Assembly: GCA_947184155.2 (NCBI GenBank)
Contig: CAMXCT020001446.1
Coordinates: forward strand, 344,001-408,000
Length of the DNA stretch: 64,000 nt
Reading direction: 5' to 3'
From: Cladocopium goreaui
Taxonomy: Eukaryota > Sar > Dinophyceae > Suessiales > Symbiodiniaceae
Shown: positions 1,338-64,000 of the stretch, piece after piece
Layout: every line of letters begins with the position of its first letter
How positions within the stretch are numbered: position 1 is the stretch's first letter
Notes under the pieces: model-generated
The model's input: the letters and a program-made list of their open reading frames with translations, nothing else
Database searches by the model: none
Told to the model about the DNA's origin: nothing
Translations under genes and position numbers: made by a program

Positions 1338-1718
1338 TCAGACGATCCTGTGAGCGTCCGCGGCAAACTTGTATAATAAGTTGCCATTCTGGTCAAACTC
1401 CAAAGCCTTCATCATGCCTTGCCAACGATATTCGTTGGGTTTATACTTCAGAAGGACCCCCGCCTCGGCCTTTTGGAGATAGCCAATGGCGGTCAGTTCG
1501 ACCTCAACAAGGACATAATCCTTGGCACAGAACTCACCCTTGGGACCTTCCGGTGTCCAATCATTGAAGTACTGCGCACGCTCAACGGCAGCAATCGGGT
1601 CTTTTCGTAGTCCAAACCTTTTGGAATATTCGTCAGGCTGAATCTCCTTGCCATTGTTCAAGTCCTCAAACTGCTTAGGAGTCAGAGCCAACCAAAGACG
1701 AATGGATTCCATTGCCAT
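1338..1718 (-). CDS. Small hypothetical protein (126 aa)
   Basis: The longest open frame begins at a TTG (1727); the first ATG is at 1718. The protein looks soluble, with mixed helix and strand, a Trp/Leu-rich start and a central segment centred on AIGYLQKAEAG. The best support for its being real is a decayed second copy at 37207-37316, where the segments VEVELTAIGYLQK and EYRWQG are recognisable in two frames. I know no family for it. It lies among the small ORFs downstream of the helicase gene on the same strand. Confidence 0.6.
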   Translation of the reverse strand: MAMESIRLWLALTPKQFEDLNNGKEIQPDEYSKRFGLRKDPIAAVERAQYFNDWTPEGPKGEFCAKDYVLVEVELTAIGYLQKAEAGVLLKYKPNEYRWQGMMKALEFDQNGNLLYKFAADAHRIV

Positions 1719-1962
1719 TGATGCCAAAGGATCTCAAAGCGATCGTAAGGGCGGTTGAAATGCAAAAACACTGAGCCAAAGCTGTCTTATAGTAAAACAG
1801 CAACGGTGGAATGAAACCTCTACAAACATGAGAAGTCCAGACAAAAATGTCACGTCAAGTCCAGCATAATAGACAGCTCCATACTTCGTCTCTCACTTAG
1901 ACAGTATGTCGAGCCACAAACTGACAGTACATTTACATTCATTTCAGTCAGTTTCACGTTTC

Positions 1963-2005
1963 GGAACCTATGCAAGTCGTAATCGCCCCTGCCGTCCAGT
2001 TCCCT
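1963..2005. repeat. Dispersed 43-bp repeat, copy 1
   Basis: Identical over 43 bp to 2136-2178. It starts GGAACCTATGCAAG and ends CCAGTTCCCT, so its ends (GGAAC/GTTCC) are complementary. A related unit starting GGACCTATGCAG occurs at 2181-2222 and 3706-3746. Confidence 0.75.
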
Positions 2006-2135
2006 TTGTTTCTTTCTCTTTTACTGAATCTGTTCTCTGAGCCTATGCACGTCTGCAATCCAGCCCATGTGTGAACCTTGCAACGTCTTGCAATCTGGTC
2101 CACGTTTTGACTTTCTACAACCTTTCTTTCCTTTT

Positions 2136-2222
2136 GGAACCTATGCAAGTCGTAATCGCCCCTGCCGTCCAGTTCCCTATGGACCTATGCAGCGCCTCTG
2201 CCATCCAGCCCATTTCTTTTCT
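2136..2222. repeat. Dispersed repeat, copy 2 and related unit
   Basis: 2136-2178 is identical to 1963-2005. 2181-2222 is the related CCTATGCAG unit, which recurs at 3706-3746 with a one-base length difference. Confidence 0.75.
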
Positions 2223-3331
2223 TTCTGTTGTAAGTCAAAACTCTTCAATTCAAAAGAAAATTGCAAATCTCAAGTCCCAGATTCCCTCTCTTGCTTTTCA
2301 CTCTGAGCAACACGCAAACGCACAAACTACACTACCGTTCTACTTCCCTCTCTCAGGATCCTCTGCAAAGCTCCAATGCTGTAAATCTCTTGGAACTCCA
2401 TGCCATCCTTCCGGTAGTACAAGATGTCCACTCAACATGGCCCAAGGTTCGCAAAGGAAACCCTCCAGGGTCAACTAACATCACAAGCATCTTGTTCTCA
2501 GACTACGTTGGTTATGGCACTTCCTTTGAGCACGGAGATTTCTGCAAGCCAATTTTGACTGTGAGACGAACTCTATGATCTTTGTAGTGATGATTGCCAA
2601 GCGCCGTGCTCATCCATCCATCTAGAGAGGTACGGTACGATTGCTCTAAGCCAAAAGGGAATACTTGTATTCAAGTTGTCTTCACACAAAGTCCAGTCAG
2701 TCTGACAACAACTCCAGAGTAGCTACCTGTCTCAGGGTTCAATGTACCTTCTCTGCATCTGTCCCAGGTCTCACAAACAACTGCAACAATCCAAGTAACG
2801 TAAGTCATACCTGACCTGCCTGCGACACTGCAAAACTGTTCATATTCCGGTCAAAGAAAACATGAAAACAAACTCACAACAAAGTTTCTTGTCTCGTTTC
2901 AAAATACAGTTCAAAGCAGTTTCCACTACCTACACAGTTCAGGTCGTTCACAATGTCTTACAGCAATACATGCTCAACTCAAACACTTCCACAACTGCAG
3001 TCCAAACCAACATCCTTGGTTACCTGGTGCATCCGAGAAATCAAATCAACGTTCCCAAACAGGCAAACACAGTTCACTCTGGCCATTCTTACTCACCACC
3101 TGTTGTCAACCAACAGTCGCAACACCAAGTTCCGCTGTGCCTTCAGTGCCATGACGGTTCCTATTTCTCTCTCTCTCAGCACTCCAGTACCTATACTGCC
3201 AGGCAAACAACAATGCTTCAGGCTCCAATCTCAAGGTCACCAGTCAGTGCAAACATCCGTCAAGCTCTACTGCTCCTGCACACTACTGAACCTCAGGTGT
3301 CCAACTATTCACGCATTACATTACAAATGTG

Positions 3332-3592
3332 GCAACTAAACCAAGGTCACTGACAAAGCGAACTCGACCCTCCAGGCTCTCATGCCAACGTTTCTCAACT
3401 GTATGGCAACTAAACCAAGGTCACCGACCCTCCAGGTTCTCATGCCCATGTTTCTCAAATCTGTGGCAACTAAACCAAGGTCACCGACCCTCCAGGTTCT
3501 CATGCCCATGTTTCTCAAATCTGTGGCAACTAAACCAAGGTCACCGACCCTCCAGGTTCTCATGCCAATGTTTCTCTCTCCAACTGTCATCT
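3332..3592. repeat. 60-bp tandem repeat array
   Basis: About four units. Units 3421-3480 and 3481-3540 are identical, and the flanking units are diverged (the first carries an insertion). Each unit contains AACTAAACCAAGGTCAC and CCCTCCAGGTTCTCATG. The array is open in several frames only because the unit length is a multiple of three. Confidence 0.9.
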
Positions 3593-3705
3593 CCAGGCAT
3601 GACGCCAGGCTCAGTAGCACCACGCACTGTGCACTCCGTGCGTCCAGGATCAACTACAACCTGACCAACCTGTCGAGATGTATTTCTCTCTTACTTTTCT
3701 AATAT

Positions 3706-3746
3706 GGACCTATGCAGCACCCTGCCATCCAGCCCATTTCTTTTCT
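3706..3746. repeat. Dispersed CCTATGCAG repeat
   Basis: Near-identical to 2181-2222, including the shared tail CCAGCCCATTTCTTTTCT. Confidence 0.7.
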
Positions 3747-3759
3747 AGTTCTTTCAAAT

Positions 3760-3870
3760 GCTCTCTAGTGATTCTCCAGGCACTCTCTCTCTCTCTGCCA
3801 AAATCACCAAGCTTCCTAGTGACTCTCCAGGCTCTCTCTCTCTTTCTTGCCAAAGTCACCAAACCTCTTA
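3760..3870. repeat. Short tandem duplication with CT-rich core
   Basis: Two units of about 50 bp, each with CTAGTGAYTCTCCAGGC, a CT run, and GCCAAARTCACCAA. Confidence 0.75.
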
Positions 3871-4066
3871 CGCAACAAAACCGCTAGTCACACATGCAAC
3901 GCAACTCAGTATACTCTCACATGCAACTCAGGCGTTGTCACCTATTTTACACGCTTACCACTGCTGCCAGGAACCCTATCGCCTACATCTGCTAAATCTA
4001 TCACACAGCAATGGGTCACAGGTATTTCAACCTTGCAATGACCTGCGATACCTGCCTAAGATATGC

Positions 4067-5624: not shown

Positions 5625-6047
5625 TCAGAACACAAAGTTCTTTCTCCAAATCAGTTTTCCACATAGAGATAGCATCTCACAGCTTCCAACCTTAATGTAG
5701 AATAGAATGTTCTGTTCGACACTGTCAATGTAGGTCAGCCAAATACAGTTGTATCGCTGAAGTCTTTCGACCACTGTAATAGCCAATCCACAATGTAGAC
5801 CGAAGTCTTCTCCAAACAATGTTGTCCTCATAGAGATAACCAAAGTCATCTCAGCAACGATAAAATGCACACCAAAGTCATCACAATACCGAAACATCTC
5901 ATCACAAAACTCAGACAAATAAGATGCCCAAATATGGCCATTGTCTTCACAATACCAATGCATCCCATAGTCCAAACTCTTTTTTTTTCCGTCCAACGCC
6001 GTATAGCTTTCGCCAGGTCGTTCAACATGTTTCCAAGCATGTTGCAT
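5625..6047 (-). CDS. Possible ORF, 140 codons, weak
   Basis: Open on the minus strand, with Cys, Trp and aromatic residues and no low complexity after residue 30. However, its first 20 or so codons lie inside the dispersed repeat that recurs at 37.5 kb. I see no family, no upstream hairpin and no second copy of the body. It could be a small gene of the element or chance. Confidence 0.25.
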   Translation of the reverse strand: MQHAWKHVERPGESYTALDGKKKSLDYGMHWYCEDNGHIWASYLSEFCDEMFRYCDDFGVHFIVAEMTLVISMRTTLFGEDFGLHCGLAITVVERLQRYNCIWLTYIDSVEQNILFYIKVGSCEMLSLCGKLIWRKNFVF

Positions 6048-6924: not shown

Positions 6925-7335
6925 TTACCTTGGTAGGGGAATGCGAGCGTTTTTCTCTGCCCAGGGACCAGGTCGATCGTCAAAGTGTTCCGCCGAGGTT
7001 CTGGATAGGCAACTTGTGTCAGCTGTGTTGAGGTCCTCAGTTGGGTAGTGTTGTACGCTCGCATGCATGAGCTGCAGTTGTCGACTTATCACTTCACGCT
7101 CTGTGACATTGGCACGGGCTTCTACTCGAATGCGCAGGCTCCTTATGCAACTGCAGGCTGTGCGAATGTCTCTACAGTCTTGCTCGTTGATAACACCTGC
7201 AAGAAGTTCCGCTTGTTGCAAGGCGGCAAGGGTGTCTTCCAATGTTCTGAGGGTGTTTGTCAGTTTGTGCACATGGTCCTGCAAAAGGAGGAGATCCTGG
7301 GCCTCATTGTGACTTTGGGGTTCAGCGGCAGGCAT
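6925..7335 (-). CDS. Small coiled-coil protein (136 aa), function unknown
   Basis: ATG at 7335. The protein is Gln/Leu/Ala-rich with heptad-like spacing (for example DHVHKLTNTLRTLEDTLAAL), a short cysteine pair near residue 58, and a polar C-terminus. It follows the helicase polyprotein by 482 bp on the same strand, with two element-A-type hairpins in the gap (7594-7612, 7717-7735), which supports it as a real downstream cistron. No recognised family. It could be an oligomerising RNA-binding accessory, but nothing in the sequence shows this. Confidence 0.6.
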   Translation of the reverse strand: MPAAEPQSHNEAQDLLLLQDHVHKLTNTLRTLEDTLAALQQAELLAGVINEQDCRDIRTACSCIRSLRIRVEARANVTEREVISRQLQLMHASVQHYPTEDLNTADTSCLSRTSAEHFDDRPGPWAEKNARIPLPR

Positions 7336-7593
7336 TCCAATTCACTTGGTTGCGCTGAACTCATACGGCCAGGTGGCATTCAAGCATTGCAGGTGCTGGA
7401 TTGCGCTGAGCAAAAAAGACGGGCGCCATGGCTTGATGTACTTTGACATCTCACTACACTACCATGCAACATTAAGGAAACAAAACAACAAACAACCCAT
7501 AAAAGGATTATTAGTATAAACGCCCCCCCCGCCTCCCGTCCCATACTGGATTCTGCATGCTGAGAACATGGTAGCCACAGCGGGCAGTAATCA

Positions 7594-7816: not shown

Positions 7817-10800
7817 TTATTGGAACCGCTCGTGTGGTGTAGTGCGAAGGTCTCTACTGCTACTGGCACCACACGCTCCCGCAGTGGCGGAGGGTGGCTC
7901 ACTGCTCCCCGCAGGTTTCATCATTTGGGCGATGAGCGGGTGAGTATGCTTGTCACGCAGGATGCGCGTCATCTCGCGGGTAAATGCCGCAGGGTCATCT
8001 ACTAATTTCTTTGCTTCCGCCAGTGGCTTGTCCAGAACAATGGCAATAAGCATTTCCCCACCATCCTTGTGGATGATTGTTGGTCGTCCAGCTTGTATCT
8101 CGGCAAGGATTGCTACTGCCTTGTTTTCACACAGAGTGCGTTCCCATTCTTCCAGCGCTCTCTGCGCTAGGGTATCAGTCTGTGGTGGGGCTTTCAGGGC
8201 AGCTGGTGTTCCTAACGCTTGTATGAAGGGGCTGTCAGGAGGAATGGGGGGCGGAAAATGCCGAATTGCCGAGACGGCCCGCTGAAGGTCATTTGCCTGT
8301 ACGTCATAGGAAGTGGTCGTTTTTTTATTTACTGCAGGTTCAGAGTCAGCCCATAGCTGTTCCAGTGTATAGCCAGGTTTTGGTTCCATATACTTGCGGT
8401 TCCACACTGCATGATGGGACCATTGAGGCGCGTCATGGTTGATTTCAACAGAATCTCGTTTCATATCATATTCTTTGAGCATGTCGTCTAATTCTTGCAA
8501 ACTAGCAGTTCTGTGAATGCAACATTGTCTGACGGCGCCATCAATGTGGAGTGGCCATCCTACTGGCATGTGGGAGTCTTCCAGGAGTCCATCGCCATTT
8601 TGCTCTATGATTGTGCCTAACATAGGGACATCAATGGTTGCTTTGAGGCTGACTTGTGCACGTTTGCACTTCCATGTGTCAGGTGCCAACAGGCCTCTGC
8701 TAGCTAACAGCTCAAGCGACTGGAATTGCGGTTGGTCAGTCGCTGGTAACACTTCTTCTTTGATAACTAACTTAAGACCATGAAGTGGCTGGGCTTGCTC
8801 CTTGTGAGGGTCTTGGGATCGCTGAGAGGTAGGGTCCTTAGGTGTTGTGTCCTCAAACCAGGTGGGGCGGACTGACTGGACTCCTATGGGACTAGCAGAA
8901 CTCGCAGTTTTGATGCTTTCTCTGCGCAGGCTATGGTAGACAGGCGGGATCATCCATGCTGGCACAAAGACTGTGATGAACTGCACATTCCAAATGACCT
9001 GCAAATTCTGCGGCTTCACTTCAGGCGTGATGCATCTTACCTGGCCATCAATCACTCTGGTATATGATTCTGAGCGGTCAAAGGACGCTGTGACTTTCAG
9101 GCCTAAGTACAGTTCTCTGAACCAGTATTCCTTGAGCATCATAAAGGAAAGGTGAGGTGCCCTCACTTCCATTACGTGCCTGGCTGGCATTAACAGAGTT
9201 ACCATCCATTCAGCTAAGAATTCAATCATCTTGACTTCGAGTTTAGGGAGGATGGCTTGGACTGCTCGTAGTGCGCCTGCGATGTCCGGGACATGTTTAC
9301 GTGAGGGAAGTCCCACTGTGCGCTTGGCGTACTCGTCCGCAAAATAAAGTCTGCACAATTTTGAGACCCATTGGCTCGGTTTCTCCATATCGATGGTGAT
9401 TTTGGCTAAGGGCCATGGGTCTGGGAGCGTGGATAGACAATGCAATAACTCGGAGGTGAGGTCTGCTGATATTACTGGGAGGGCTTCTCCTTGTGGGCGA
9501 TAGTCAACTGGAGGTCCAACCGTGCCTTTACTTCTTTGCGTGTGGGTGCGGGCGGCACTGTGTACAGCTTGGATGGTGGTTTCGTATTGGTTGACCATGG
9601 CTCTTAGGTATTTGCATGCGCGGACAGCTGCTTTTCTTGTGCTCGGCCCATCCTCTGGCTGGTTCTTGGCGGCTACTGCAAGAATGTCTCTCGCTTCTTC
9701 TTCTGGCGACCGTTTGGGTTCCGCATCAGGTGTAGGTGCATCAATAGCGGTACCTTGAACTGGCGCCTCTGCTGCGCGTGGCAGGTGGTCTGGGATTGGC
9801 AAGTTTGGGTGTAATCGCCATCCATCAAAGAAATATATGCCAGGCAGGGACAGGATCTCCTGGTCTGGGCCTGTCTGCGCTACAATATTCCCGGCGCGTG
9901 CTTTATACAGTCCTGAGGGTAGGCACACATAGGTGGGAAAGGGTGTGCGATCAGCAGCATAGGCATATAGGACAACTTCGGAGAAAGGGAGATGTTGCTT
10001 GGGGAGCCACTTGTGTTGGGTTCGTAAGCCTGCTTGAATTTCTTGGAAGCGCCCTCTGTCCAACCATCGAAGGTCTGACCCTCGGACCAATATCAGACGG
10101 TACCTTGCTCGCTTTACCTCGTCAGCTTGCTGATCGTAGTATTGGTTGGCGATAGCAAGGGGCGGGTATTCCCAGGTTGGTGGTGAATTCAGTGACCATC
10201 GGCTTAATTGTGCAAGATTCTCTTGCACTGGGTCAGGGTTAAATTCTGGCCATTTCCATGTCGTTTCTCCTCTCCGCAGGCCCCCGATGCCGTAGGCGAT
10301 GGTGGCAATCACCTGTGCCATGCCCATGAGCCCCATCATGTCCAGAGGAGAGACTAGCAAGGTTAACGATTTGGACCGGGTGAGTCCTACGGTGATTCTG
10401 CCCAGGCAATCTTCTGTATCCTCTGTAGGAGAGCCATTGGAGTAATATTTGGTGTTGAGAAAACCGATGCTGGGCTGAGCTACGATTGATACCCGTGCTG
10501 TTCCTCCTGCTGAATTGGCGATTGTCTCTACACGCAAGGTACGAACATAATCTCTTTTGAGCACGGAGCGATTCAAGTTGTTCTTGTGATCAGTTGCTGT
10601 GGTCATTGTAAAAAGTCCATCCGCAAATCCAGCATTGTGAGGAAAGGAGGTGAGGACCTCTGACACAAGAGTCTCTAGATCAGTCGCTACCAAACCGTTA
10701 ATCCTAGCATTTGTATCCCAAAGCACTAGCTGGAACCCTGGTGGTTTGTCTGGTAGTCCTCCCGAGGCAAAACTGCCTAGTTCCCATAGGCCATTTACCT

Positions 10801-13800
10801 GTCTGCAGAGAGCGGGGTATCTTACTGCAACCACTGCATGGTATGTCACAGGACTAACTCTGGAGCTGGAGGGAAGCATCAACCCCCAAGCATGGATGTC
10901 ACTCACACCGGCGGTTTGGGAGTTTAGGGTTGCTTGTATGTCCCCAGCCATGGGCAGGAGGGTAGCAGCATGTTGCAAGATCCAGGCAAGGCGCACGAGA
11001 GCCCGCGGAAAATTGAGAGCAGCACCCTCCAGCAGTTCTGATTCTACGAAACGGGAGTGTCGCTGTGTATTGGGCTGAGCTGCTTCAAATACGGCTTGGA
11101 GGCCTGGAAGAACAGCGCTGGCTGCTTTGAGATCTTCCTCATCCTGTGGCGATAGCTGACTTGTCCATAGCCGGCCTAAAGTGGACTGTCCTCGTTTGAG
11201 AATTTGACTAAGAGTCGTCAGACCTTCATTTGCCGAACCATCTAGCAGTCGGATCATAGCATCGGCAAGGGTGGCTGGCGTGTAATAATTGCGGTTACTT
11301 CGCAGGCCGTGCTTTTTGGCTAGCAGTAGTTGCCGTGACCGCTTTGCGTTGCGAGCTGCCCGATCAATGCCGCCAGGTGTCTGCTCTGAGTCTCCTGTCC
11401 ACAATACCAGAGGTTGCTGTCTCAGCAGGCTGATAACTGCAATTTCTCGGTCAGTGCCATACTGCTGGCCTTCATCAATGACCAGGAGGGAGAGCTCTTG
11501 CATAAAGCTACCCATTGTGGACCATTGCATGGTAAGATCCTGGGCTACCGTTCCCCCGGTGGCCAAAATTAACTGACACTTGTGCAACATTTGCCTTCTT
11601 TCTTTCGGGTGGATATCAAATTTAGTGTGGGAGTAACTGCTTTTGTTGCGCTCTTGGTCTCCCACCAGCCTACCTATGCGCCCAAACACCCCCGACGGGG
11701 GGTCGAGCCATAGGAGGAGGTCAGCAAAAGATCTAGTACCAGAGTTCTCTTTACAAATGAACAATATCTTGAGGCTATCGGTAGTATCGATCTCAATCAG
11801 CGCCAGGATGAGAATCGCCATCGATTTCGACTTACCTGCTCCGAAAAGCCCTTGGATGCACAGATCAAGCCGGTTGGTGAGTAAAGCCATTGTCACTGCG
11901 CAGAGTGTGCCTAAAACATGTCCGTCGATTTCAGCAGCAAAAGATAGTGCTGTGGAGCGGGTCCAGGGGTGGAGCTCGCCTTCAACGTGACATGGAATTA
12001 GCATGAGGTGCAGCAACTGGCCGCACAAGTGCAAGAAGTGTGATCTTTTGTTGCCCTCCATCCCCTCCACTGCTGTTTGGACATTATAGATGCCTAGTCC
12101 CAGGTGGTACCTGCACGGGGAGGTTTGCGCGACAGCGGTAAGCTCGCGGGTGGGCTTGGTACATCCAAACATCCACATTGTGTGGAGAAAAAAGGTCTTT
12201 GGAACCGGACTTTTTTGCCCCTGGACAGTTGCATCAATAGGGTCCAGGCGTTGGTCAGAATCAGTGTACAAGTCTTGGAGGGTTTCAAGCTGTTCCTTTG
12301 CAAAGAACTCAATGGCTGGTACTGTGAGGAAGGCGACCTCAATGAATTTGGGGTTACATTGTCTGTATATACGTGAGGCTGCCAGCTCATCCTTCTTTTT
12401 GGCTGCACGCGGTGTGATGGCGAGGACCAATCCAAACAGGATTTGGAGGTCATCTCCGTCATCAGCTGGTGCTTCTGCTGTGCCAACCATGGCGATGAGC
12501 CTACCCGTGCCAATGGGGCTGACTTTGTGATGGTGCGCATCACTAGCAAGTAGGCTAAACACATCAGTTTTACCAAGGCTTGGATGGCGGAACGCGAATG
12601 CATCCTGTCCGCCTTTGACTCTCCAGTGGCCAAACTCGCTGCCTTTGAAGAGGAATTCAAGGGCGATGGGTTGTGATGGCTGTCGAACCGGGCCTGCACT
12701 TTGCATTGTTAGCCCTGTTTCATTATAGCCTTCATTAGGACTGAGCATGGGCAGGTAGTAGTCTAACATGTAGACAGCCATGGGCAATTGTAGGGTACCA
12801 AGGAACTGTTGGACCATGGTGGTATAGTTATGCAACTTGGCCCTTGAGGAAATGGTAACTGTTGCCAACTCGGCTAGGTATTGGGTAGCTTCTTGCTCAG
12901 TTTTGATCTCTGCGTTATGGACAGCAATCTGGGTAACCAGTGCCTGTGTTGTGGTTTCAGGTAACTCGCACATTTCCGCTAACTCACGCAGGAGTTTTCT
13001 GGCAGTTCTTGGGAGCTCAAAACTGCACCAGGAGATCAGACGAAGAGGAGCTTGTGAGTACACTTCGAAGGGGAGCACCCCTGGGATGCCTTCCAGCTGT
13101 TCCATATCCGGTCGTCCTTCTGGGAGGGCAACCCTGGTCCAATGCGAATAGTTATGCTGTGCAGTGCCGAGGTACGCTCTCCATCCTGTGATATGCGTGA
13201 TTTTAAAGCCTCGTTGCTTAAGCAATTTGATGTCATGGTTCGACGGGTTCCAGACACAAAGCCTGTCATCGGCATGGTGGATGAGGTGAATCTCTCTCAG
13301 CTGAGATAAGTTGTATGTTGTTAGCAACGATGGTGGCAGCGCAATGGCTGCTAGCACGGTTTTGCCATCAACATCTGGGAACTCTGAGAGGATTGTTTCC
13401 CATACCATTCCTGCATACGAGCCAGCGCTGTGCCCTCGGATGTAGAAAGAACCTATCATATATCCTGTCAATCTGAGGTAGTCCGCTGGACGGATTTCAG
13501 GGGGCAGGCAGACTCCGACCAAAGGATGCGCTACCAGTAGCTTGGTAAAGAGTCTAAGGCCATGCGTGTACCCCGGCCATGGTGGTTTCCTATGCGCTGG
13601 AATGATAGGGCAGAAGCGCAACAGTTTCATGGCTCGACTGATGATCTGCGCTTGTAATTGGTTCGCACTGGGCATTCCTAAAACACGGCACCAGAAGTGT
13701 GCCCCGATGGGAAACATGGCGATGTGCAGTAGCAAATATTCTTGTGTGTGGGCAGTGCCTGCTACTGTGCCAACTCTTGCATTCCAATCGTCCTGTTTGC

Positions 13801-15964: not shown

Positions 15965-15990
15965 GCTGACGCCGGGTTGACCCTGAACAG

Positions 15991-16001
15991 CCGGTACCCG
16001 G
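15991..16001 (-). repeat. Element A hairpin, CC/GG core
   Basis: Core CC-GGTACCC-GG with outer pairs CA/TG and TGA/TCA (15984-16008, one mismatch and one bulge). It lies 27 nt upstream of the helicase ATG. Confidence 0.6.
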
Positions 16002-16101
16002 ATGTCAGGTGCCAAGCGACCGGCCGAAGGTAGTGAGTACTATGTTGGTAGGAAGTGCAAAACGTGTGAACGGGATTGGCTATGCTAGGGAAACCCCGAA
16101 C

Positions 16102-18213: not shown

Positions 18214-18309
18214 ACCAGCAACAGGTACCCTGTCGTGGCAGTATGGAGGCAATTGCACGGCGTATGGTGAGGCCAAAGGATCGGAACCACTCACTATTGC
18301 AGGCAGCGG

Positions 18310-45340: not shown

Positions 45341-45355
45341 TCATTGTTAATTGTA

Positions 45356-49300: not shown

Positions 49301-49496
49301 CGCGTTAAGAAGCCTGACAGGAGATGATTCAATACTGTCGCTGGTCGAAGGCTCAAGGAAAAGCGCTAAGCACTTAGCAATAGCATCGCGAGTTGTTCAT
49401 CAATTCAGGTTGCTACTACGGGAATCAGGTGCAATGAGACATCAAATCTCTGCTCCCCTCACCCCTATCGATACCTGGATACATAACCTCGTGCAA
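46370..49496 (+). CDS. Reverse transcriptase of element B
   Basis: The frame is open from GTG 46341, but useful homology begins after the frameshift near 46370. Seen: APGPDGIPYSAWRL, VWIPKAKVGPTADYFRPLG, LVDLSKAFERVNP (catalytic Asp codon 47499-47501), RHKVQG, GYIDDNT (47769-47786). A connector aligns with the two broken frames of element A, and zinc-type motifs CALC/CETC and CIACSKGDNTVGHWIRWC follow. All catalytic residues are present and no internal stop occurs over more than 1000 codons. The frame is interrupted after 49496 by the second 1.05 kb insert and resumes at 50550 as RNase H. Confidence 0.92.
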
Positions 49497-50552: not shown

Positions 50553-52475
50553 CAAACAGAACTACCCCTGGACCTTCGAATGCAGCATATAAGGACGCAA
50601 TTAGCCTCCGCCCTCTGCTCTATTAATGACTCGCTACTCTCGTGCTGTGACAAACCCCCCCTCCACATTTCGTGTGCTCTTGCCCCAGCTCGAGTGTGCC
50701 TTACTCGTGAAGCAGTGGAAGCCAATCAAACATTTGCGGTCGTCCCCTTAGGCTCTGAATCACTGCATTTAATCCAGCAAACTATCCAGGTCGGAACAGG
50801 AATTTCCCCAAATGTCTCGCTCTCCACTTTCCAGTGTGAGTGTGGGGACTATCATTGCCGTATTACGGCATTACAGCCTATAGGCACCGATGAAGTGCTC
50901 AGTAGCTGTCTCAATTCTGACAAAACTACATTACTAGTCCAATTTGACGGGTCCTGCCATGCTGATACGGGCACAGGTGGGGCGGGCGCTGCTCTCTTAG
51001 AACTCCAGCGAGAAGGACTAACGTTGCTCAAGTGGAGGGCTGTTGCACTACCTAGCTGCCCAGACAATATCTTTGCTGAAGCGGTGTCAGCTAATCTCGC
51101 TACAGACCTTTTGTGTGAAGAAATGGTACACAGAAGCTACGCAGTTGACCATGCCTACTTACAAGGGGATATTCTCCCCATCGTAAAACACTTAGCCTTT
51201 GCAGGACGCTTTCGTAGGATCGACCTACAGCCTATTATACAGCAAATTCGCCGGAAACAATCAAGGTTTTTTGACCATGGAAAATGGGTATACCGCCCAA
51301 GAGAAGCCAATATACTCGCAGACTACCTTGCTGGAGTAGCGAGCCGAGCGGCACAGGCCTTCCCAGCTCATATAAGTGAGCCTACCGAAATCGCGGTTGA
51401 AGCGCCCTATCAGTTGGCCATGCGATCAGGAGCTATTGTACTGGAAGAGAGGCCGCGAGGTGTTACGATCCTATTACTTACCGAAGTTCCGAAGGTAAGC
51501 ATAGAATTGGTAAGTAAATTTATGATGCAAACTGCAAACCAGCAATACCGCAAAGAGGTTGAGACCTATCTAGCGGGCACTGCCAATCTCACGAAACCCC
51601 GAATAGTAGAGTATACAGCTTCTGCAATAGACTGTCTAGGCCGACTGTATGGCAGAGGTCCCTGTGCTCAAAGACTGCCACGAAAAGTACGATTACTCCT
51701 ATTTGGAAATACGCACCAAGAAGTTGACATGGTCGGCGCTTTCTACGAAATCATGAGACGACTCCTTCGCAGCAGTCACCTCCCTCACATAGTAGATCTG
51801 AGAGCGACACTTATGGATCTGCTGGAGTTAGTACCGCTGAATCGGCGGTTTGCCGTTGTCAAGCGACATCCACTAATTGTAATGAATGCAGGAGCAAGCG
51901 AAGCGTGTGCTAAAATTGAAAGGGAACACCATATCACATGTCCTCCAGCATTACATCACCTCAGCCTTCAAATTGAATCAGCCACGCAAGCTCTAGTTAA
52001 CAATCACCTGCCAGCAAAAAGGCCACAATATGCTACTCATGCCAGAGGTGCCGCTTTTCGAACTCTAGAATGGTATGAAGAACATATTATGATCTCTTAC
52101 TACAAGGAACTAACGAGAAGATGTCACATAACATCAGCGATCTGGCTTCATGATGGACTCTGGCTCCCAAAAGAAATTTCTCCACATTTACTCTATGAAG
52201 CTGAACGGGCAATGCTCCATCAATTACAGCTAGATTCATGCGATCCCCCCCTTTTCAGTTTACGTGAACTCGCCACAGATGCTCAGGCGCTTATACAGAC
52301 TCTCGATGACGTCAACGCGGCCACAAATCCCTCCCCCCTTCCACGCACCGAAAGAAAAAGAAACATCGAAAGTGAGCCATTTGGGACGAGACCCATTCGA
52401 TGGAACACACAAGCACCAACATCGGGCTACAATACCTTCACGGAACGTATGGCCAAACGGCGTAGAGCAACCTAA
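50550..52475 (+). CDS. RNase H plus polymerase-like module of element B
   Basis: Continues the RT frame after the insert; the open frame itself reaches back into the insert to 50376. RNase H begins at VQFDGSCHADTGTGGAGAAL, with NIFAEAVSANL and YLQGDILPIVKHL following, the usual D-E-D order. Downstream module, as in element A: GRLYGRG, QRLPRKVRLLLFGN, QEVDMVGAFYEIMRRL (Asp, motif-A-like), then FRTLEWYEEHI and AIWLHDGLWLP (motif-C-like HDG). A basic tail (RKRNIE, AKRRRAT) may be a nuclear signal. No frameshift over 640 codons, so selection has probably acted on this part. Confidence 0.85.
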   Translation, partial: RQTELPLDLRMQHIRTQLASALCSINDSLLSCCDKPPLHISCALAPARVCLTREAVEANQTFAVVPLGSESLHLIQQTIQVGTGISPNVSLSTFQCECGDYHCRITALQPIGTDEVLSSCLNSDKTTLLVQFDGSCHADTGTGGAGAALLELQREGLTLLKWRAVALPSCPDNIFAEAVSANLATDLLCEEMVHRSYAVDHAYLQGDILPIVKHLAFAGRFRRIDLQPIIQQIRRKQSRFFDHGKWVYRPREANILADYLAGVASRAAQAFPAHISEPTEIAVEAPYQLAMRSGAIVLEERPRGVTILLLTEVPKVSIELVSKFMMQTANQQYRKEVETYLAGTANLTKPRIVEYTASAIDCLGRLYGRGPCAQRLPRKVRLLLFGNTHQEVDMVGAFYEIMRRLLRSSHLPHIVDLRATLMDLLELVPLNRRFAVVKRHPLIVMNAGASEACAKIEREHHITCPPALHHLSLQIESATQALVNNHLPAKRPQYATHARGAAFRTLEWYEEHIMISYYKELTRRCHITSAIWLHDGLWLPKEISPHLLYEAERAMLHQLQLDSCDPPLFSLRELATDAQALIQTLDDVNAATNPSPLPRTERKRNIESEPFGTRPIRWNTQAPTSGYNTFTERMAKRRRAT

Positions 52476-54570: not shown

Positions 54571-54604
54571 GACTGCACCTGGCAAACGCTCCAACCTCGT
54601 AGCC

Positions 54605-55414
54605 ATGTCGACCGCGCTCATGACATTTCTGAGGAACTACCACTGGAAAGGTTATAATGTCGAAACCATTCAGAGCACTCCAAATATGCTGACAAATCTA
54701 CATCGCGGCAAGTATCCTATCCATAGACTATGTCACAATGTCAACATAGAATGTAGAGCATTTAACCTGATGGAAGTATGCACATGGCTCAATGGTGAAA
54801 AATGGAACATCCTATGGGCTGAAGACGAGTCATGGCTCCCGGAGGAGACGACAGTAATGATGGGGGCTACACTGCCCCATGGATTCCATAAAGTCATCCC
54901 TCGAGAGTGTGACGAGGTTTACCTGCAGGCTTGGTTGAATATTACAGGATATGGTGGTTTCTATCCCTTCGCTGCAGAGGTGCGACACAACGGATATGCA
55001 TGCTGGGCCAACTCCAGACGCTTCGCAATAGTTGCAAAGAATGCCCAACACTGTGCTATTATTGCAGAAATTATGCATGCTTACAATATCTTAGGTAATC
55101 GCATTGAAACGCTGCAGCCAACCCTAGAAGGAATTGCACTGAGTGAGCAATCACGAATCAACACTGCTGTCCATGAAGATGATCGACCGTGCTTTGATTT
55201 CCGGCTCTCGCAAGAGTGCCAAGCTGCGATAGCAGGCCAGTTTCCTAATCATGCAGATGAAGCTGATAGGATCTTCCAACTCAGTGAAGGTATACAAGTG
55301 CTGCAAATGCAACATAATAACCTTGTCCAAGAAGCTAACCGAGCACTTTACCGACTACAGCAAAATTGGTATGCCCTCAGTGAAGCTTATGCAACCATCT
55401 TCACCGACCTTTGA
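54605..55414 (+). CDS. Trp/Asn-rich small protein (269 aa), tandem-duplicated family
   Basis: ATG 54605 after hairpin 2. The core has NGEKWNILWAEDESW, a GFYPFAAEV segment, CWANSRRFAIVAKN and AYNILGNRIETLQP, then a C-terminal helical region. The next unit (56146) is about 97% identical, and 59595-60758 holds a distant relative with NGECWNIV, IWPFYATES, WVSPRRFAVITN and DHNILANR in the same order. The conserved W-N-I / P-F-A / R-R-F-A-(I/V) pattern suggests a compact beta-rich fold, but I recognise no named family. Three members in one element suggest an important, multiplied accessory, perhaps a coat or nucleic-acid-binding protein. Confidence 0.75.
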   Translation: MSTALMTFLRNYHWKGYNVETIQSTPNMLTNLHRGKYPIHRLCHNVNIECRAFNLMEVCTWLNGEKWNILWAEDESWLPEETTVMMGATLPHGFHKVIPRECDEVYLQAWLNITGYGGFYPFAAEVRHNGYACWANSRRFAIVAKNAQHCAIIAEIMHAYNILGNRIETLQPTLEGIALSEQSRINTAVHEDDRPCFDFRLSQECQAAIAGQFPNHADEADRIFQLSEGIQVLQMQHNNLVQEANRALYRLQQNWYALSEAYATIFTDL

Positions 55415-56145
55415 GGCCCAATGATTTAGCAGAAGTCCTGTGAAGTTGATCGCCAGCAAATCCAAAAGAGGAACTCAGTGGTCAGCCCTTCCTGTGGTTT
55501 TTCTCGCTGATCACGCAAATAATCTTTAAGGGAACTGCACCACATGCTCACTTTGTAGTGACACTTTCATCCTTGTGACGTTTTTGGTGGTGACTGCACT
55601 GTGAACATGCGCGTGTGTTTGCTCACAGGTTTTTCATCCCTCCTAAGCTGGTATGTTAACAAGCGACAGCCCCTACACACCTATTAGCGGGTTATATGAC
55701 AGCCCTGTGTTTGTGCATCTCATGAATGTTCACGAAGGGCTCAAGGATGGACCCCAACCCGCATTTAACTTGTCTATCCTTGTTCAGTGGTATTAACTCA
55801 TGCACAATTGGCTACTTGCTTGCTGTCCTAGGTTCTTCCACAAGTCAAAAAGTGTGAAGATTAGGTGGGGTTTACTTCAGTGATCACAGGATATACACAT
55901 AATTAATATTTCCTCCATCCGAATGGCTGAGATACCCTAGATAGACAGTCATCTCAGAGGCATGACCGACATGATCCAATATTCAACATGCCTGCCATAA
56001 ATAAAGTAACCATGTAGGTCACGTTGCCTTTCCGACCAAGGACGTGTCGGGATTGCAACTGACTGACAACAACATCAGCTAACTGCCATCTCACTCTTAC
56101 TCTCACGACTAATGCAAGACCTGGCAAACTCCCACCCTCGTAGCC
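55415..56145. other. 3' tail of the gene above plus leader of its duplicate
   Basis: Noncoding. 55415-56000 recurs as 56957-57545 and the leader 56003-56145 recurs as 57547-57712, which shows the duplicated unit includes gene, tail and hairpin leader. Confidence 0.7.
56032..56050 (+). repeat. Element B hairpin 3, CCGAC stem
   Basis: CCGAC, loop CAAGGACGT, GTCGG. 95 nt upstream of ATG 56146. Confidence 0.9.
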
Positions 56146-56956
56146 ATGTCGACCGCGCTCATGACATTTCTGCAGAACTACCACTGGAAAGGTTACAACG
56201 TCGAAACCATTCAGAGCACTCCAAATATGCTGACAAATCTACACCGCGGCAAGTATCCTATCCATAGGCTATGTCACAATGTCAACATAGAGTGTAGAGC
56301 ATTTAACTTGATGGAAGTATGCACATGGCTCAATGGTGAAAAATGGAACATCCTATGGGCTGAAGACGAGTCATGGCTCCCGGAGGAGACGACAGTAATG
56401 ATGGGGGCTACACTGCCCCATGGATTCCATAAGGTCATCCCTCGAGAGTGTGACGAGGTTTACCTGCAGGCTTGGTTGAATATCACAGGATATGGTGGTT
56501 TCTATCCCTTCGCTGCAGATGTGCGACACAACGGATATGCATGCTGGGCCAACTCCAGACGCTTCGCAATAGTTGCAAAGAATGCCCAACAATGTGCTAT
56601 TATTGCAGAAATTATGCATGCGTACAATATCTTAGGCAATCGCATCGAAACACTGCAGCCAACCTTAGAAGGAATTGCACTGAGTGAGCAATCACGAATC
56701 AACACTGCTGTCCATGAAGATGATCGACCGTGCTTTGATTTTCGGCTCTCGCAAGAGTGCCAAGCTGCGATAGCAGGGCCAGTTTCCTGATCATGAAGAT
56801 GAAGCGGATAGGATCTTTCAACTCAGTGAAGGTATACACGTGCTGCAAATGCAACATAATAACCTTGTCCAAGAAGCTAACCGAGCACTTTACCGACTAC
56901 AGCAAAATTGGTATGCCCTCAGTGAAGCTTATGCAACCATCTTCACCGACCTGTGA
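56146..56956 (+). pseudogene. Duplicate of the 269-aa gene, frameshifted
   Basis: Matches 54605-55414 with few substitutions, but has one extra G in the run at 56776-56778. The frame from 56146 therefore ends at 56790; the rest of the homology continues one frame over to the TGA at 56954-56956. It could be a fresh mutation or a homopolymer sequencing error. The first 210 residues, including WNILWAED and RRFAIVAKN, are intact. Confidence 0.85.
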
Positions 56957-57712
56957 GGCCCAACGACTTAGCAGAAGATCGGTGAATTTGATCGCTAGCA
57001 AAGCCAAAAGAAGAACTCAGTGGTCAGCTTTTCCTGTGGTTTTTCTCGCTGATCACGCAAATAACCTTTAAGGGAACTGCACCACATGCTCATCTTGTCG
57101 GGGCACTTTCATTCTGGTGATTTTTTGTTTATGGTGACTGCATTGTGAACATGCGCGTGTGTTTGCTCACAGGTTCCTCATACCGCCTAAGCTGGTATGT
57201 TTAATAAGCAATATATCCCCTACACACCTATTAGCGGGTTATATGACAGTCCTGTGTATGTGCATCTAATGAATGTTCACGAAGGACTCATGGAAGAACC
57301 CTAACCCGCATTTAACTGTCTATCCTTGTTCAGTGATATTAACTCGTGCACACTTGGTTATTTGCTCGCTGTCCTGGGCTCTTCTACAAGTCAAAAGTGT
57401 GAAGATTAGCTGGGCGTATGTTCCAGTGACAACGGAATAGGAACATAACTGATCTCCTCCATCATAATGGCTGAGATACCCTAGCGAGACAGTCATCTTA
57501 AAGGCATGATCGACATGATTCAATTTTTAACATGCCTGATATAAATAAGGTAACCATGTCGGTCACGTTGCCTTTCCGACCAAAGACGTGTCGGGATTGC
57601 AACTGACTGACAACAATACCAGCTAACTACCATCTCATTGTCACTCTCACGATAACTGCTAAACAATAATATTTGTGTGTAGTGGGCCTCCACTCTCTCT
57701 ACCCGTACTGCC
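56957..57712. other. 3' tail of duplicate and leader of the 248-aa gene
   Basis: Noncoding. Contains hairpin 4 and a T/C-rich stretch ending CTCTCTACCCGTACTGCC before ATG 57713. Confidence 0.6.
57576..57594 (+). repeat. Element B hairpin 4, CCGAC stem
   Basis: CCGAC, loop CAAAGACGT, GTCGG. 118 nt upstream of ATG 57713. Confidence 0.9.
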
Positions 57713-59594: not shown

Positions 59595-60758
59595 ATGGCG
59601 CAGTGGATCGGTGATAAGGTCACGCTAAAAGCAGGCCCACTGACTGGACCTGACCAAGCGAGCCCAGCTGGTGACAGTAAGGAGACTGAGACTCACAGTG
59701 CACACCAGAGACCTGAATACCAAGAGTCCTACATTATGGAATACGACGGCATCCAGGTCTATCGGCAGCAGGGCTGCTATGAGCATGCCCAGCAGCTCCA
59801 TGCATAGTCCTTCTACGAATACAGAATGTGCATCAATGGCGAATGTTGGAACATTGTTCTCAATGATGACATGAAGAGCCCACTGGACTGGACCTATCCA
59901 GGGTCCAGTTCCACCAAGCTGTCACATGACTTTTGTCATCTAGACACCGAAGCCAGTGATGATGTATATACCAACTTTTGGTTTGTGGAAATGGGTGGCC
60001 GGCAGATCTGGCCCTTCTACGCCACAGAGTCCTTTCAGGAGGATTTATGGATCTGGGTTAGTCCCAGACGATTTGCTGTCATCACAAACCACCGACACAA
60101 TGAGAAACTGAATCATTTCTATGTTGACAGAATGCATGACCACAATATCCTGGCGAATCGCACGCCCTGCTGGCCTTTCACAGAAATGACCAATAGCTCA
60201 GGCAAGGTGATGGACAAAATTATTGCCCTGAACAGCAAATCCCGCTGCAGTTCAGCAACTCACGAAACTTTCAAGACTGGCTTTGAACACAAAAGTGCCA
60301 TAAAGGCTATGCCGCGAAAAGACGAGAACTTGTATGGCAAGAGAAAGTACACGGACCCCACGGGACAGACCAGTACCCAGCAGCTCGACCCGACTGGGAA
60401 CTACAGTGAACGTGACTTGCAGAAACTCAATGCGACTTTTGCTGGACGATCGGAGCCGCAATCACCCCCCATGCCAAGTCACACAACAAGCAAAGTCACA
60501 ATGTGGCGGCATGGTGAGGTACCGCCGCTTGGACCGGCAACAGAGGGCCGTGCTCGGGCCACTAAACAGCTGGCGTATGCACGCACTTTATTAACCTTCG
60601 TAATGGAGGCAGCCACCCAAATGGAAGAAGTCGTGGGCAACTTGGTACAGATCGAGCAGGAACAAGCCACGGCTAGAGAGGAAGAGTTGGTTCAAGCTGC
60701 CTCAGCTGCTCCGACAGAATCGTGCACAGATCCAGCTACAGAGGGAAGTCAAACCTGA
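59595..60758 (+). pseudogene. Distant relative of the 269-aa family with an internal in-frame TAG
   Basis: ATG 59595 opens 70 codons, then TAG at 59805-59807; the same frame continues to 60758 (388 codons in all). The homology to the 269-aa family (NGECWNIV, IWPFYATES, SPRRFAVITN, DHNILANR) starts just after the stop, and reading in the same frame on both sides suggests one gene. After the core there is a Lys/Arg-rich, Pro-rich linker and a C-terminal helix (ATQMEEVVGNLVQIEQEQA). Either a nonsense mutation, suppressed readthrough, or translation from the ATG at 59826. Confidence 0.65.
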
Positions 60759-61369
60759 GTGACATTAGCCTTTTGACATCTGCATGCTGACTACAGTCCG
60801 AAGGAACTGCAGCGAAGACTGCGGCCCTCCCTCACCCTGAGGATGTTGGACATGAAAAGATGGCAAGTTCGCTAGCTGCTAATTTTGTGAACAGAATTCT
60901 TGAAGTTGAGCTGATGAGTTTTTGTTTGTTTGTCTTTGCATGGGACCCCTTGCCACGCTGCTTACTAGAAGGCCCGCAGCATTCCTAGTTCAAATAATAG
61001 CATCGGACTCTTGATCCTCACCGAGGCCTTCCTGATATAAGCCTGGTCACATACCAACTAGATCGATCGTTAGATCTATGGGATCCTAGATATGCCATAC
61101 AGCACAGGCCGTTTGCTTCTGACTGGTTATTTTGTTGTCGTTGCGTCAGTTTGCAAAGCCCTTGAGAATTGTTCTCTCGTGATCTCCTCAGCAATATCGG
61201 CTCCAATTTAGATGTTCTGACATGCTACTAGTCTGTTTGCAGGTCCTTATACACCCCTCTGCATCCTACTTAGGCATTGTTGAGTTCCGTGGTTGCAAAT
61301 ATAACAGCGAGGCCTCTCTGGCTAAAGACTGTCAGGGTTGCCTCCGATTACTTATTCCCAGGGGCAAGC
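60759..61369. other. Spacer and leader
   Basis: No supported gene; the ATG at 61222 opens only 60 codons. Ends with hairpin 6. Confidence 0.5.
61318..61335 (+). repeat. Element B hairpin 6, CTGGC stem, short loop
   Basis: CTGGC, loop TAAAGACT, GTCAG (one G-T wobble). 34 nt upstream of ATG 61370, which favours that start. Confidence 0.8.
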
Positions 61370-62488
61370 ATGCGACTCCGTGTCTGCCATGGAATCCACG
61401 GTGAAACAGCCCTGACGATGGACGTCTTGGACCGGACAACCCTCGGATGGGACATTATTAAACAGACGGCTAAGGTGCTCGAGTTGGACTCACCTTTTCA
61501 AGTGGTCCTATACGCAGCCAGCTCGTCAGTAATCCAACCGCCTTTGAGGGCTGTTCAGTTCAACACAGATACAAATGAGGCAACATTCTGCTATATAGTG
61601 CAGTCGTTACAAGTCCCGTCAGCACAGCAATACCGAGACCTTCTCGCTGCCATTTGTCACAAGGATGTGATTGATGTAAGCTATCTTCTAGGTAAGGGCG
61701 TAGGCCTTATGGACATGGCTACGGAGGAAGGGCATATTAGTACATTAGTAGCTTCAGCTATCCTTCGAGACCATTCTGCTGATCCATACGCTTCCCAGAC
61801 TGCTGCTGGCCACTGTTTCCCTCGACATGGAGCCACACTAACCTACCTACTGCTACAAGCCCATGCTGACCCCAATATCATTCCGCCCAAAACAAAACCT
61901 ACCACCATGTTGGAGTTAGCAGTTGAGTTGGGCAGCTCGCAGCATGTACAAATTTTGCTTGAAGCTGGTGCCTCAGTGATGCCAGTGAAGGGAGCGCTCC
62001 CCCCCCTTTTTCTTGCTGTCCTTCATCGACACAGGACTAATGTACAGCTGCTCCTAGACGCACAAGCGGACCCGTGGCAGGAGATTCCGATTGCTTCCGT
62101 GCTTTGCCATTCATTGGAATGGCATGGTTACCCTGCCCGAAAAGAAGTCTTCAACTCTGTACAAGCTGCTGCTGCGCAAAGTGCTGAAGACACAGTCATT
62201 GATATGCTACAGCAATGGTGTAGCGCCACAGACAAGAACAGAAGTGAGCAAGCCTTTTTAGCGCGAGTGAAATCCACAACTTTGACAGATCGGGCTACCC
62301 CAATCATCAATCGAATTGTTTGGAAATACCAACACATCATTGAGAAACAGTCTCGACAACCAGATTTTACTACGTTTCGATGGCGCAGAATACTCGACGG
62401 CTTGTCTTTACCAGTACAACTACGCCCTGAGCTGCGGACGCCCCCGGAGCCCAACCAGGAAGACACATTCCTACACCAAGTTGACTAA
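61370..62488 (+). CDS. Ubiquitin-like plus ankyrin-repeat protein (372 aa)
   Basis: The open frame reaches back to 61277, but hairpin 6 and the ubiquitin-like start favour ATG 61370. Residues 1-55 look like a beta-grasp ubiquitin-like domain (MRLRVCHG, then TMDVLDRTTLGWDIIKQTAK). From about 95 come ankyrin-type units: YRDLLAAICHKDVIDVSYLL, a degenerate unit, TLTYLLLQAHADPNI, MLELAVELGSSQHVQILLEA, and LFLAVLHRHRTNVQLLLDAQ. The C-terminal 120 residues are helical. Proteins joining a ubiquitin-like start to ankyrin repeats are abundant in dinoflagellates, so this may be a captured host gene. A protein-binding adaptor role is likely; partner unknown. Confidence 0.78.
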   Translation: MRLRVCHGIHGETALTMDVLDRTTLGWDIIKQTAKVLELDSPFQVVLYAASSSVIQPPLRAVQFNTDTNEATFCYIVQSLQVPSAQQYRDLLAAICHKDVIDVSYLLGKGVGLMDMATEEGHISTLVASAILRDHSADPYASQTAAGHCFPRHGATLTYLLLQAHADPNIIPPKTKPTTMLELAVELGSSQHVQILLEAGASVMPVKGALPPLFLAVLHRHRTNVQLLLDAQADPWQEIPIASVLCHSLEWHGYPARKEVFNSVQAAAAQSAEDTVIDMLQQWCSATDKNRSEQAFLARVKSTTLTDRATPIINRIVWKYQHIIEKQSRQPDFTTFRWRRILDGLSLPVQLRPELRTPPEPNQEDTFLHQVD

Positions 62489-62669: not shown

Positions 62670-62689
62670 GCGAGCCCATTGGCTCAAAG
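62670..62689 (+). other. Possible degenerate spliced-leader relic
   Basis: Reads GCGAGCCCATTGGCTCAAAG. The inner AGCC and the end TTGGCTCAA match the dinoflagellate leader, with small indels. Less certain than the relic at 36589-36608, and 770 nt from the next ATG. Confidence 0.4.
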
Positions 62690-62935
62690 AGACAGTCGTA
62701 GACAGTCTTGCTGCCTTAGCTCATTTCCAGGAAAGGGCCCTCCTCACAACGTTAAGGGATAGAACTAGCCAACTTCCCGGTTATCGGGCGAAGGGTATTG
62801 CTACAGTGTCGTCTTCATTCAACTAAGTAGATATTGATCTCTCGTGCATTGGAACCACATTCCACGATAGCATCCATCATTGCTCATTCCACCTCATCTT
62901 ACTGCTCCCTCCTGTTTATTTGACGTCTGGTTTCT

Positions 62936-62954
62936 CTGGCCAAAGACGTGCCAG
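62936..62954 (+). repeat. Element B hairpin 7, CTGGC stem
   Basis: CTGGC, loop CAAAGACGT, GCCAG. Perfect stem; compared with CTGAC/GTCAG the fourth pair is changed on both sides. Confidence 0.9.
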
Positions 62955-63021
62955 GGTTATCAGCGCCTCTTTTCACCTCTTCTCCCTTTCTTCTCTTTTC
63001 TCCCTCTCGTGCTTGGATTCT

Positions 63022-63039
63022 CTGACTAAAGACTGTCAG
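63022..63039 (+). repeat. Element B hairpin 8, CTGAC stem, short loop
   Basis: CTGAC, loop TAAAGACT, GTCAG. Same short-loop variant as hairpin 6. Confidence 0.85.
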
Positions 63040-63191
63040 GGCTTCCAGCTTCTTCCTCCGGTTCCCTCCCCCTGATTCACCTCTTTCGCTCACTACGTGT
63101 GCGCTACCTAGCTTAATCATTGCTCCTAAATCTTCGTGTCCTGGTTGTTTGATTTGATCCTTTTTGTTTGCGCTCTGGGTGCTTGAACTGC

Positions 63192-63210
63192 CTGGCCAAA
63201 GACGTGTCAG
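63192..63210 (+). repeat. Element B hairpin 9, CTGGC/GTCAG stem
   Basis: CTGGC, loop CAAAGACGT, GTCAG, with one G-T wobble. Confidence 0.85.
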
Positions 63211-63369
63211 GTTTTTCAACACCTGCCCCCCCTCTCCCCCTCTTTTTTGGTTTGTTTGGTTGGTTGTTGTGCTGTTGGCCTTTTCTTGTTGTTGCCTGCC
63301 TTGTTGGTCGTTCTTTTGTTCCTCCCGGTCGGTTTTTCTGACTTATTCTAATTGGTGTGCTTGAGTCTT

Positions 63370-63388
63370 CTGACCAAGGACGTGTCAG
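63370..63388 (+). repeat. Element B hairpin 10, CTGAC stem
   Basis: CTGAC, loop CAAGGACGT, GTCAG. 75 nt upstream of ATG 63464. Confidence 0.9.
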
Positions 63389-63463
63389 GATTCTCAACAC
63401 CTCCCACCCTCCCCCTTTCTTTAATTCTGTAGTCAAATCAGCTGCCCAGGTATTCACAGTGTG

Positions 63464-64000
63464 ATGTCTCTGCTTTCCAGAGAACAGGTTGCGAAGTCTT
63501 GGTATGAAAAGAACCCAAATATCAGGTTCTTTGACCTGCTCTACGCAATTGAACAGCACAAGAGCATTTCGACTGAATACGGGCTAAATGTATCGATTGA
63601 GCAGCACTGGCGATTTGGAGACCCCCATAAGAAGACAGCTGCACCGGATCGGCATGACTATGAAATTGCCATGGTCGACGGGAGCGAAACCTTACCTGGA
63701 CCTGATTGGCACAAGTTGTACCGATGGCTGGTTAGTCAGAGCTCAGCGTTTCTGCCCTACCACACGGTATATCTGGTGACGGACAATCGGGATCTGCAAT
63801 CAGACGAGGTCAAGTCGGTGCCTGGACTCAACCATTGGCCCATGGTCGCTGCTTGGTGGAAAGAACGGCTACGATATGTCGGTCCATATGGCGAACTTAC
63901 CACAGTTGTCTTTGTCCACATTTCGGCTGACACTGGTCTTCACAAGGTACACCCGACATGGGCTGGGACGTACATCCTTGATGCTTGTGTATTCCTCTTT
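63464..64000 (+). CDS. N-terminus of element B helicase polyprotein (partial)
   Basis: ATG 63464 opens 179 codons to the right edge without a stop. From residue 70 it aligns with residues about 140-260 of element A's helicase polyprotein: LPYHTVYLVTDNRDL versus LPEYATVYVYVDNRKL, then ISADTGLHKVHPTWAG versus IHADTGLHQVHYTWAG. The first 70 residues differ; element A has an acidic region there. The helicase and hydrolase domains would lie beyond the window. This places a helicase gene downstream of RNase H in element B too. Confidence 0.85.
   Translation, partial: MSLLSREQVAKSWYEKNPNIRFFDLLYAIEQHKSISTEYGLNVSIEQHWRFGDPHKKTAAPDRHDYEIAMVDGSETLPGPDWHKLYRWLVSQSSAFLPYHTVYLVTDNRDLQSDEVKSVPGLNHWPMVAAWWKERLRYVGPYGELTTVVFVHISADTGLHKVHPTWAGTYILDACVFLF

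Follow-up and report, generated by a model that had tools for sequence, protein, structure and literature searches.

Long interspersed nuclear elements (LINEs), the non-long-terminal-repeat (non-LTR) retrotransposons, are generally 4 to 8 kb long. Here we describe element A, a LINE-like unit of 30,629 bp, and its diverged relative, element B, in a 64,000-nucleotide stretch of DNA from the dinoflagellate Cladocopium goreaui (contig CAMXCT020001446.1, positions 344,001 to 408,000; here referred to as the window). The nearest known element is SymbioLINE-Dnmt, a dinoflagellate LINE in which a DNA methyltransferase (DNMT) open reading frame (ORF) lies upstream of an endonuclease-reverse transcriptase (EN-RT) ORF, with target-site duplications (TSDs), conserved untranslated regions (UTRs), and high copy number (de Mendoza 2018, PMC5890265). 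DNMT-bearing dinoflagellate LINEs are thus on record, as a first-pass annotation of the window had stated; neither "helicase" nor "spliced leader" occurs in the text of that paper. In the insect LINEs TRAS and Jockey, a superfamily 1 (SF1) helicase has been described as an accessory domain of RNA virus origin, acquired by capture (PMC6338049). Terminons are Penelope-like elements of rotifer telomeres that carry hammerhead ribozymes (Arkhipova, PMC6431247), and the TV-Pol family comprises minimal family-A-like polymerases of virophages and mobile elements (PMC2579912).

Results

Element A is a single insertion of 30,629 bp

Six-frame reading of the window revealed long open frames on both strands, between 36153 and 7817 on the minus strand and from 40091 up to the end of the window on the plus strand. 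Both strands carry the same gene series, namely methyltransferase, APE endonuclease, RT, RNase H with a tail, small ORFs, and helicase; the first-pass annotation had proposed this series on opposite strands, and BLASTP matched the two sets of proteins in that order. The minus-strand series belongs to element A, a single retrotransposon insertion running from 36608 to 5980. It is flanked by an exact 18-bp TSD, GAGTTTGGACTATGGGAT, with one copy abutting its 5' end (36609 to 36626, minus strand) and the other at its 3' end (5962 to 5979, minus strand), and this word has no third occurrence in the window. As a control, we compared 281 pairs of window zones for their longest common word, which was at most 16 bp in 278 pairs and 53, 61, and 300 bp in the remaining 3. 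The giant size claimed for A in the first-pass annotation therefore stands, while the 3' end, which had been placed at 1338, is corrected to 5980. Self-comparison of the window revealed no direct repeat linking the two ends of A, which hence has no long terminal repeats.

All parts of A lie on the minus strand. The 5' end is a match to the dinoflagellate spliced leader (36589 to 36608), followed by ORF1 (2,426 amino acids [aa]; 28873 to 36153), with a putative C5-methyltransferase-like core near 29977 to 31443. ORF2 begins with an APE endonuclease and an RT with a YVDD motif (26057 to 28879), both recognized by Pfam (RVT_1, 3.8e-15; Exo_endo_phos, 6.7e-10), and its remainder occupies two other frames (22681 to 26114), with RNase H at ~23815 to 24270 and a predicted polymerase-like domain at ~22864 to 23697. 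These frame changes disrupt ORF2 in the window copy, and it is open in other copies. Some 4 kb with little coding capacity separates RNase H from a 602-aa ORF that has no family match (16642 to 18450). Next come a helicase polyprotein of 2,740 aa (7817 to 16039; helicase core, ~10340 to 11872) and a 138-aa ORF (6928 to 7341). The 3' UTR, which lies after the helicase ORF, closes in the terminus AACGACCTGGCGAAAGC...GTTGGACGG plus A9 (5980 to 6022). This pattern is common to 13 distinct 3' termini in the window and the fetched loci, whose A runs are short, mostly 6 to 10. Leader, ORF1, ORF2, 602-aa ORF, helicase, 3' UTR, fixed 3' terminus, and short A tail thus form one insertion unit.

Because RT and APE endonuclease share one ORF, and because of the TSD of A, the fixed 3' end, and the 5' truncation of copies (see below), we assign the unit to the LINE class. 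It is very probably an autonomous APE-type LINE of ~30 kb that exists in this dinoflagellate genome as at least two families, A and B.

The RT-helicase linkage recurs across the genome

We searched the assembly containing the window (1,165,616,438 bases in 6,202 contigs) for further copies and scored the best 49 of 1,223 RT candidates, the best 56 of 3,453 helicase core candidates, and the best 40 of 193 candidate 5' ends. The scored RT copies were 95 to 100% identical, 48 of 49 had no internal stop, and several of the matches listed had a frame of ORF2 size (2,063 to 2,097 aa). Among the scored helicase copies, 53 of 56 had no stop and 9 had the full 2,740-aa frame. When 10 other copies were read where the helicase should lie, it was present on the same strand in all 10. 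Five of these (C512, C3668, C1580, C6138, and C2223) are colinear with A from RT onward, across the helicase and up to the 3' end, and the other five (C14, C6015, C1210, C4445, and C902) have it in the 3' zone. In C512, the first 128 bases are missing, and C2223 starts at ORF2, directly after the 3' end of another copy. The A-type unit therefore recurs across the genome, with many copies 5' truncated.

Among the matches listed, we found 10 same-strand pairs (window copy included) in which the helicase lies downstream of the RT within 30 kb, compared to 0.035 expected under a uniform model. The offset was 13.8 to 22.6 kb overall and 13.8 to 14.9 kb in 8 of the 10 pairs. Likewise, for 15 of the 40 scored 5' ends, the RT matches listed include one that lies 7.7 to 8.4 kb downstream.

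These data bear on the alternative that an independent helicase gene or a second element adjoins a shorter DNMT-LINE made up of ORF1 and EN-RT-RNase H, with chance or a local duplication accounting for the linkage. Separate acquisition of a helicase is known from insect LINEs (PMC6338049), a poorly coding stretch of ~4 kb lies between RNase H and the 602-aa ORF, and truncated copies with a helicase but no RT do exist. One of these, A' (37575 to 40127, minus strand), has an internal deletion and couples the helicase C terminus to the 3' UTR and an A-type 3' terminus; it is 95% identical to A positions 10919 to 8968 and 87% identical to A positions 6628 to 6330. However, a single TSD encloses both RT and helicase in A, the 10 further copies keep the order, the offset is nearly constant, and the order is retained in the diverged family B. 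The first-pass annotation had placed the helicase inside the mobile unit, and had named RT copies ending after RNase H, together with independent helicases, as findings that would speak against it. The outcome favored the joint unit: all 10 copies carry the helicase, and in none of them (10 of the 1,223 RT candidates) did the RT copy end after RNase H. We consider an independent helicase highly improbable, and this alternative is already largely refuted.

Several observations nevertheless weigh against a single unit. Three RT-helicase pairs lie in reverse order and three on opposite strands within ~30 kb; we read these as nested neighbors. The first-look candidates rise from 1,223 for RT to 3,453 for the helicase, in counts that are rough and may include other families, and this surplus might also reflect some helicases that exist independently of the unit. 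If the LINE model holds, the excess is predicted, because 5'-truncated copies keep the helicase, which is located toward the 3' end. Of six copies read at both ends, A alone has a TSD, and the flanks of different copies match one another over 14 to 19 bp, resembling an exchange of ends through recombination, assembly, or nesting.

A spliced leader marks the 5' border of intact copies

The 5' end of A, CCGTAGCCCTTTGGCTCAAG, is the only site in the window within 2 edits of the dinoflagellate spliced leader CCGTAGCCATTTTGGCTCAAG, as printed in PMC6616646, and no such match occurred in 60 simulated sequences. Of 14 copies inspected at the 5' region, 10 hold the 5' UTR anchor, and in each of these a leader (2 to 4 edits) stands directly before the anchor, while the sequence outside the leader is unrelated among the 10. 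Since the leader occupies the exact 5' border of all 10 of these copies, we infer that a trans-spliced RNA is the template that gets copied. A second, shortened leader follows the first in C6138 and C4445. Stacked leaders have been reported for repeated retroposition of host genes (PMC12014239), and alternatively may result from a single trans-splicing from a tandem-leader gene (PMC6616646); the trans-spliced RNA would be the template under either reading. The string GGC[CT]GTATCGGCTCAA follows the leader in 10 of 10 copies and may, as a guess, be an older leader relic.

Considering that 5' leader relics are a described mark of dinoflagellate retrogenes (PMC12014239, PMC6616646), the 30-kb unit might instead be a large retrogene, that is, a host polycistronic mRNA copied by another LINE. 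However, the unit has its own genes for endonuclease, RT, and RNase H, in which motifs are conserved and many frames are open, and its copies recur with one fixed 3' terminus and in two families. A retrogene origin is accordingly scarcely credible.

Conserved and predicted domains

In ORF1, the GSPCQDLT and ENAG columns (PCQ and ENA motifs) are invariant among 20 aligned proteins, and Pfam DNA_methylase matches 3 of the 20 members (best E value, 9e-4). By these motifs and weak Pfam matches, ORF1 of A would carry a C5-methyltransferase-like core. Four of the 20 members also give a weak cysteine peptidase C39 signal. Pfam identifies an RT in B and, weakly, RNase H in both A and B.

The helicase is recognized by the GxGKS (Walker A), DE[GA]Q, GDxxQTPGG, and LTR[SA] columns, which are conserved in 17 homologs of 28 to 92% identity; Pfam matches to DEAD (7 of 17) and AAA_30 (5 of 17) are all weak. 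From these motifs we take it to be an SF1 helicase of the UPF1-like type. The dN/dS ratio of 0.19 between A and A' over 625 codons indicates that the helicase evolves under constraint. N-terminal to the core, a GHSAGS motif and weak structural matches (~13118 to 14305, minus strand) point to a probable alpha/beta-hydrolase domain. Word-limited searches of protein databases yielded clustered relatives for the helicase (17), the RNase H-tail region (50), and ORF1 (82).

The domain after RNase H is predicted, from its modeled structure, to fold like a family-A polymerase. It has possible counterparts of the beta-hairpin arginine and the two palm aspartates (GR..., E[IV]D, and HDG). The fingers motif RxxxK is not evident, one lysine (K723) being largely conserved, and profile comparisons gave no significant match. 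The polymerase-like tail of the first-pass annotation thus gains support from structure but not from sequence. In BFVD, the model of RNase H and tail had 67 structural matches with an E value of ≤0.001, with viral replication proteins foremost (e.g., Pyramimonas orientalis virus, 1.7e-8; Zamilon virus, 1.8e-6).

Such matches, along with the large polyproteins and the C39 signal in ORF1, would fit an endogenized virus or virus-like replicon that combines RT, methyltransferase, helicase, protease-like, and polymerase-like parts and integrates by a LINE-type reaction. The APE endonuclease, TSD, 5' truncation, fixed A-tailed 3' end, and high copy number are instead LINE hallmarks. In addition, no capsid gene was noticed, though no capsid-specific search was made, and three scans of viral contigs with protein queries gave no confirmed relative, a further one matching nothing. 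We therefore regard a viral origin as very unlikely.

Element B is a diverged sibling of A

Element B (40128 to 64000, plus strand) is 5' truncated inside ORF1 and continues past the window end. All of its parts lie on the plus strand and were assigned by BLASTP similarity to A: methyltransferase (40128 to 45340; 37% identity in two stretches, E values of 4e-47 and 6e-39), endonuclease (45341 to 46396; 33%, 2e-50), RT (46341 to 49538, also found by Pfam; 40.5% over 602 columns, 6e-132), and RNase H with polymerase-like tail (50325 to 52475; 29.5% over 572 columns, 3e-55). The segment after the RT (36%, 2e-38) and the one following it (33%, 8e-35) match as well. After the small ORFs, a helicase starts at 63425 and runs beyond the window; its N terminus, the part within the window, is 34% identical to that of A over 153 columns (3e-19). 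With the 5.5 kb of contig beyond the window included, this helicase forms one frame of 2,025 aa, ending at window-equivalent position 69499, with VFGAGKTRS as Walker A, and it aligns with residues 132 to 313 and 327 to 2073 of the A helicase (29% over 1,832 columns, 1e-172). B thus extends beyond the window, within which the first-pass annotation had given it at least 24 kb. With protein identities of 29 to 40% and an identical order, comparison of the two elements indicates that B is a diverged sibling family of A, in line with the earlier proposal that the order was kept by descent and is not a recent local copy. For the small genes, that proposal is borne out in position, after RNase H, but not in shared identity: the 602-aa ORF of A has no convincing similarity to the small ORFs of B and corresponds to them by position only.

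B also has features of its own. A 1,050-bp insert in its methyltransferase ORF (42383 to 43432, plus strand) has a second copy, 99.7% identical, in its RT ORF (49503 to 50552), and both stand right after AAAGGGTG. In P0102, the methyltransferase reading around the first insert is continuous, without loss. The insert in the RT looks private or rare, because most B-family RT copies elsewhere have frames exceeding the 1,065 aa of the window copy. The insert is possibly an introner-like or site-specific element. Further downstream, a tandem duplication of 1.54 kb (54577 to 56115 and 56119 to 57659; 92% identity) contains a small ORF, which has a third relative at 59808 to 60755, and an ankyrin-repeat ORF (61274 to 62488) lies just 5' of the helicase.

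Neighboring copies and insertion sites

A'' (37321 to 37574, plus strand), the short 3' end of another copy, lies tail to tail with A' at 37574/37575. Tail-to-tail 3' termini also occur at L019 8911/9070, at L020 1503/1514, and at the start of L027, the spacing across all these cases being 0 to 160 bp. On its other side, A' meets B head to head at 40127/40128, the 5' breakpoints of both truncated elements. The word CCTCATTCACCATGCA in the helicase gene is an insertion site for other copies, as seen in the flanks of C3385 and C4445, and was found at loci L014, L019, L028, L030, L039, L040, and L044. A second insertion site inside the helicase gene of other copies is common to C14 and C2916.

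Discussion

The favored reading, an autonomous giant LINE, suggests the following cycle. A long polycistronic RNA would receive the host leader at its 5' end by trans-splicing. Element proteins would bind the 3' terminus of this RNA, nick the target, and start reverse transcription at that nick (target-primed reverse transcription), and RNase H would clear the template. The family-A-polymerase-like domain and the SF1-type helicase could aid copying and strand displacement, second strand included, on a template 4 to 7 times longer than that of an ordinary LINE. ORF1 might serve to package the RNA or the new DNA, or to methylate either of them. The next RNA would be trans-spliced just upstream of or inside the old leader, yielding stacked leaders. 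Taken further, this would be a LINE with a nearly complete replication kit (RT, RNase H, a DNA-copying family-A-type polymerase, and helicase) that makes its own second strand and has its 5' end renewed each cycle via the host leader; we put this forward tentatively, as somewhat short of an even chance.

A LINE that spans 30 kb and has a conserved helicase, perhaps along with a DNA polymerase of its own, challenges the idea that only the host can make the second strand, an open question in LINE biology. The 5' leader reveals which RNA is copied, and stacked leaders could serve as a natural clock that counts retrotransposition cycles. The A-type element is also a LINE candidate for the source of many leader-tagged dinoflagellate retrogenes, for which a review favored LTR elements (PMC6050394), and it may help explain the huge, methylated genomes of dinoflagellates.

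Searches of the open-access literature turned up neither a giant LINE that carries a helicase nor a LINE that carries a family-A polymerase, nor any report of a leader at the 5' end of a LINE. Terminons resemble A as giant retroelements with several extra ORFs and commonly 5'-truncated copies (PMC6431247), but A belongs to the APE LINEs and lies at internal sites. By predicted structure, the tail domain of A has possible counterparts of the beta-hairpin arginine and the two palm aspartates of TV-Pol (PMC2579912); in this domain RxxxK is not evident, its fusion partner is RT-RNase H, and a D5 helicase domain was not detected. TRAS and Jockey (PMC6338049) resemble A as non-LTR elements with an acquired SF1 helicase, but in A the helicase is part of a separate 2,740-aa ORF 3' of ORF2 and is kept in two diverged families. 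SymbioLINE-Dnmt shares with A a DNMT ORF upstream of the EN-RT ORF, the DNMT of A being assigned by motifs and weak Pfam matches. It was reported to be without poly(A) tails (PMC5890265), whereas A-type termini have short A runs, mostly 6 to 10. Set apart from it by description rather than by sequence, A goes beyond the published account of SymbioLINE-Dnmt in its 30-kb length, its helicase polyprotein, its predicted polymerase-like domain, and its 5' leader.

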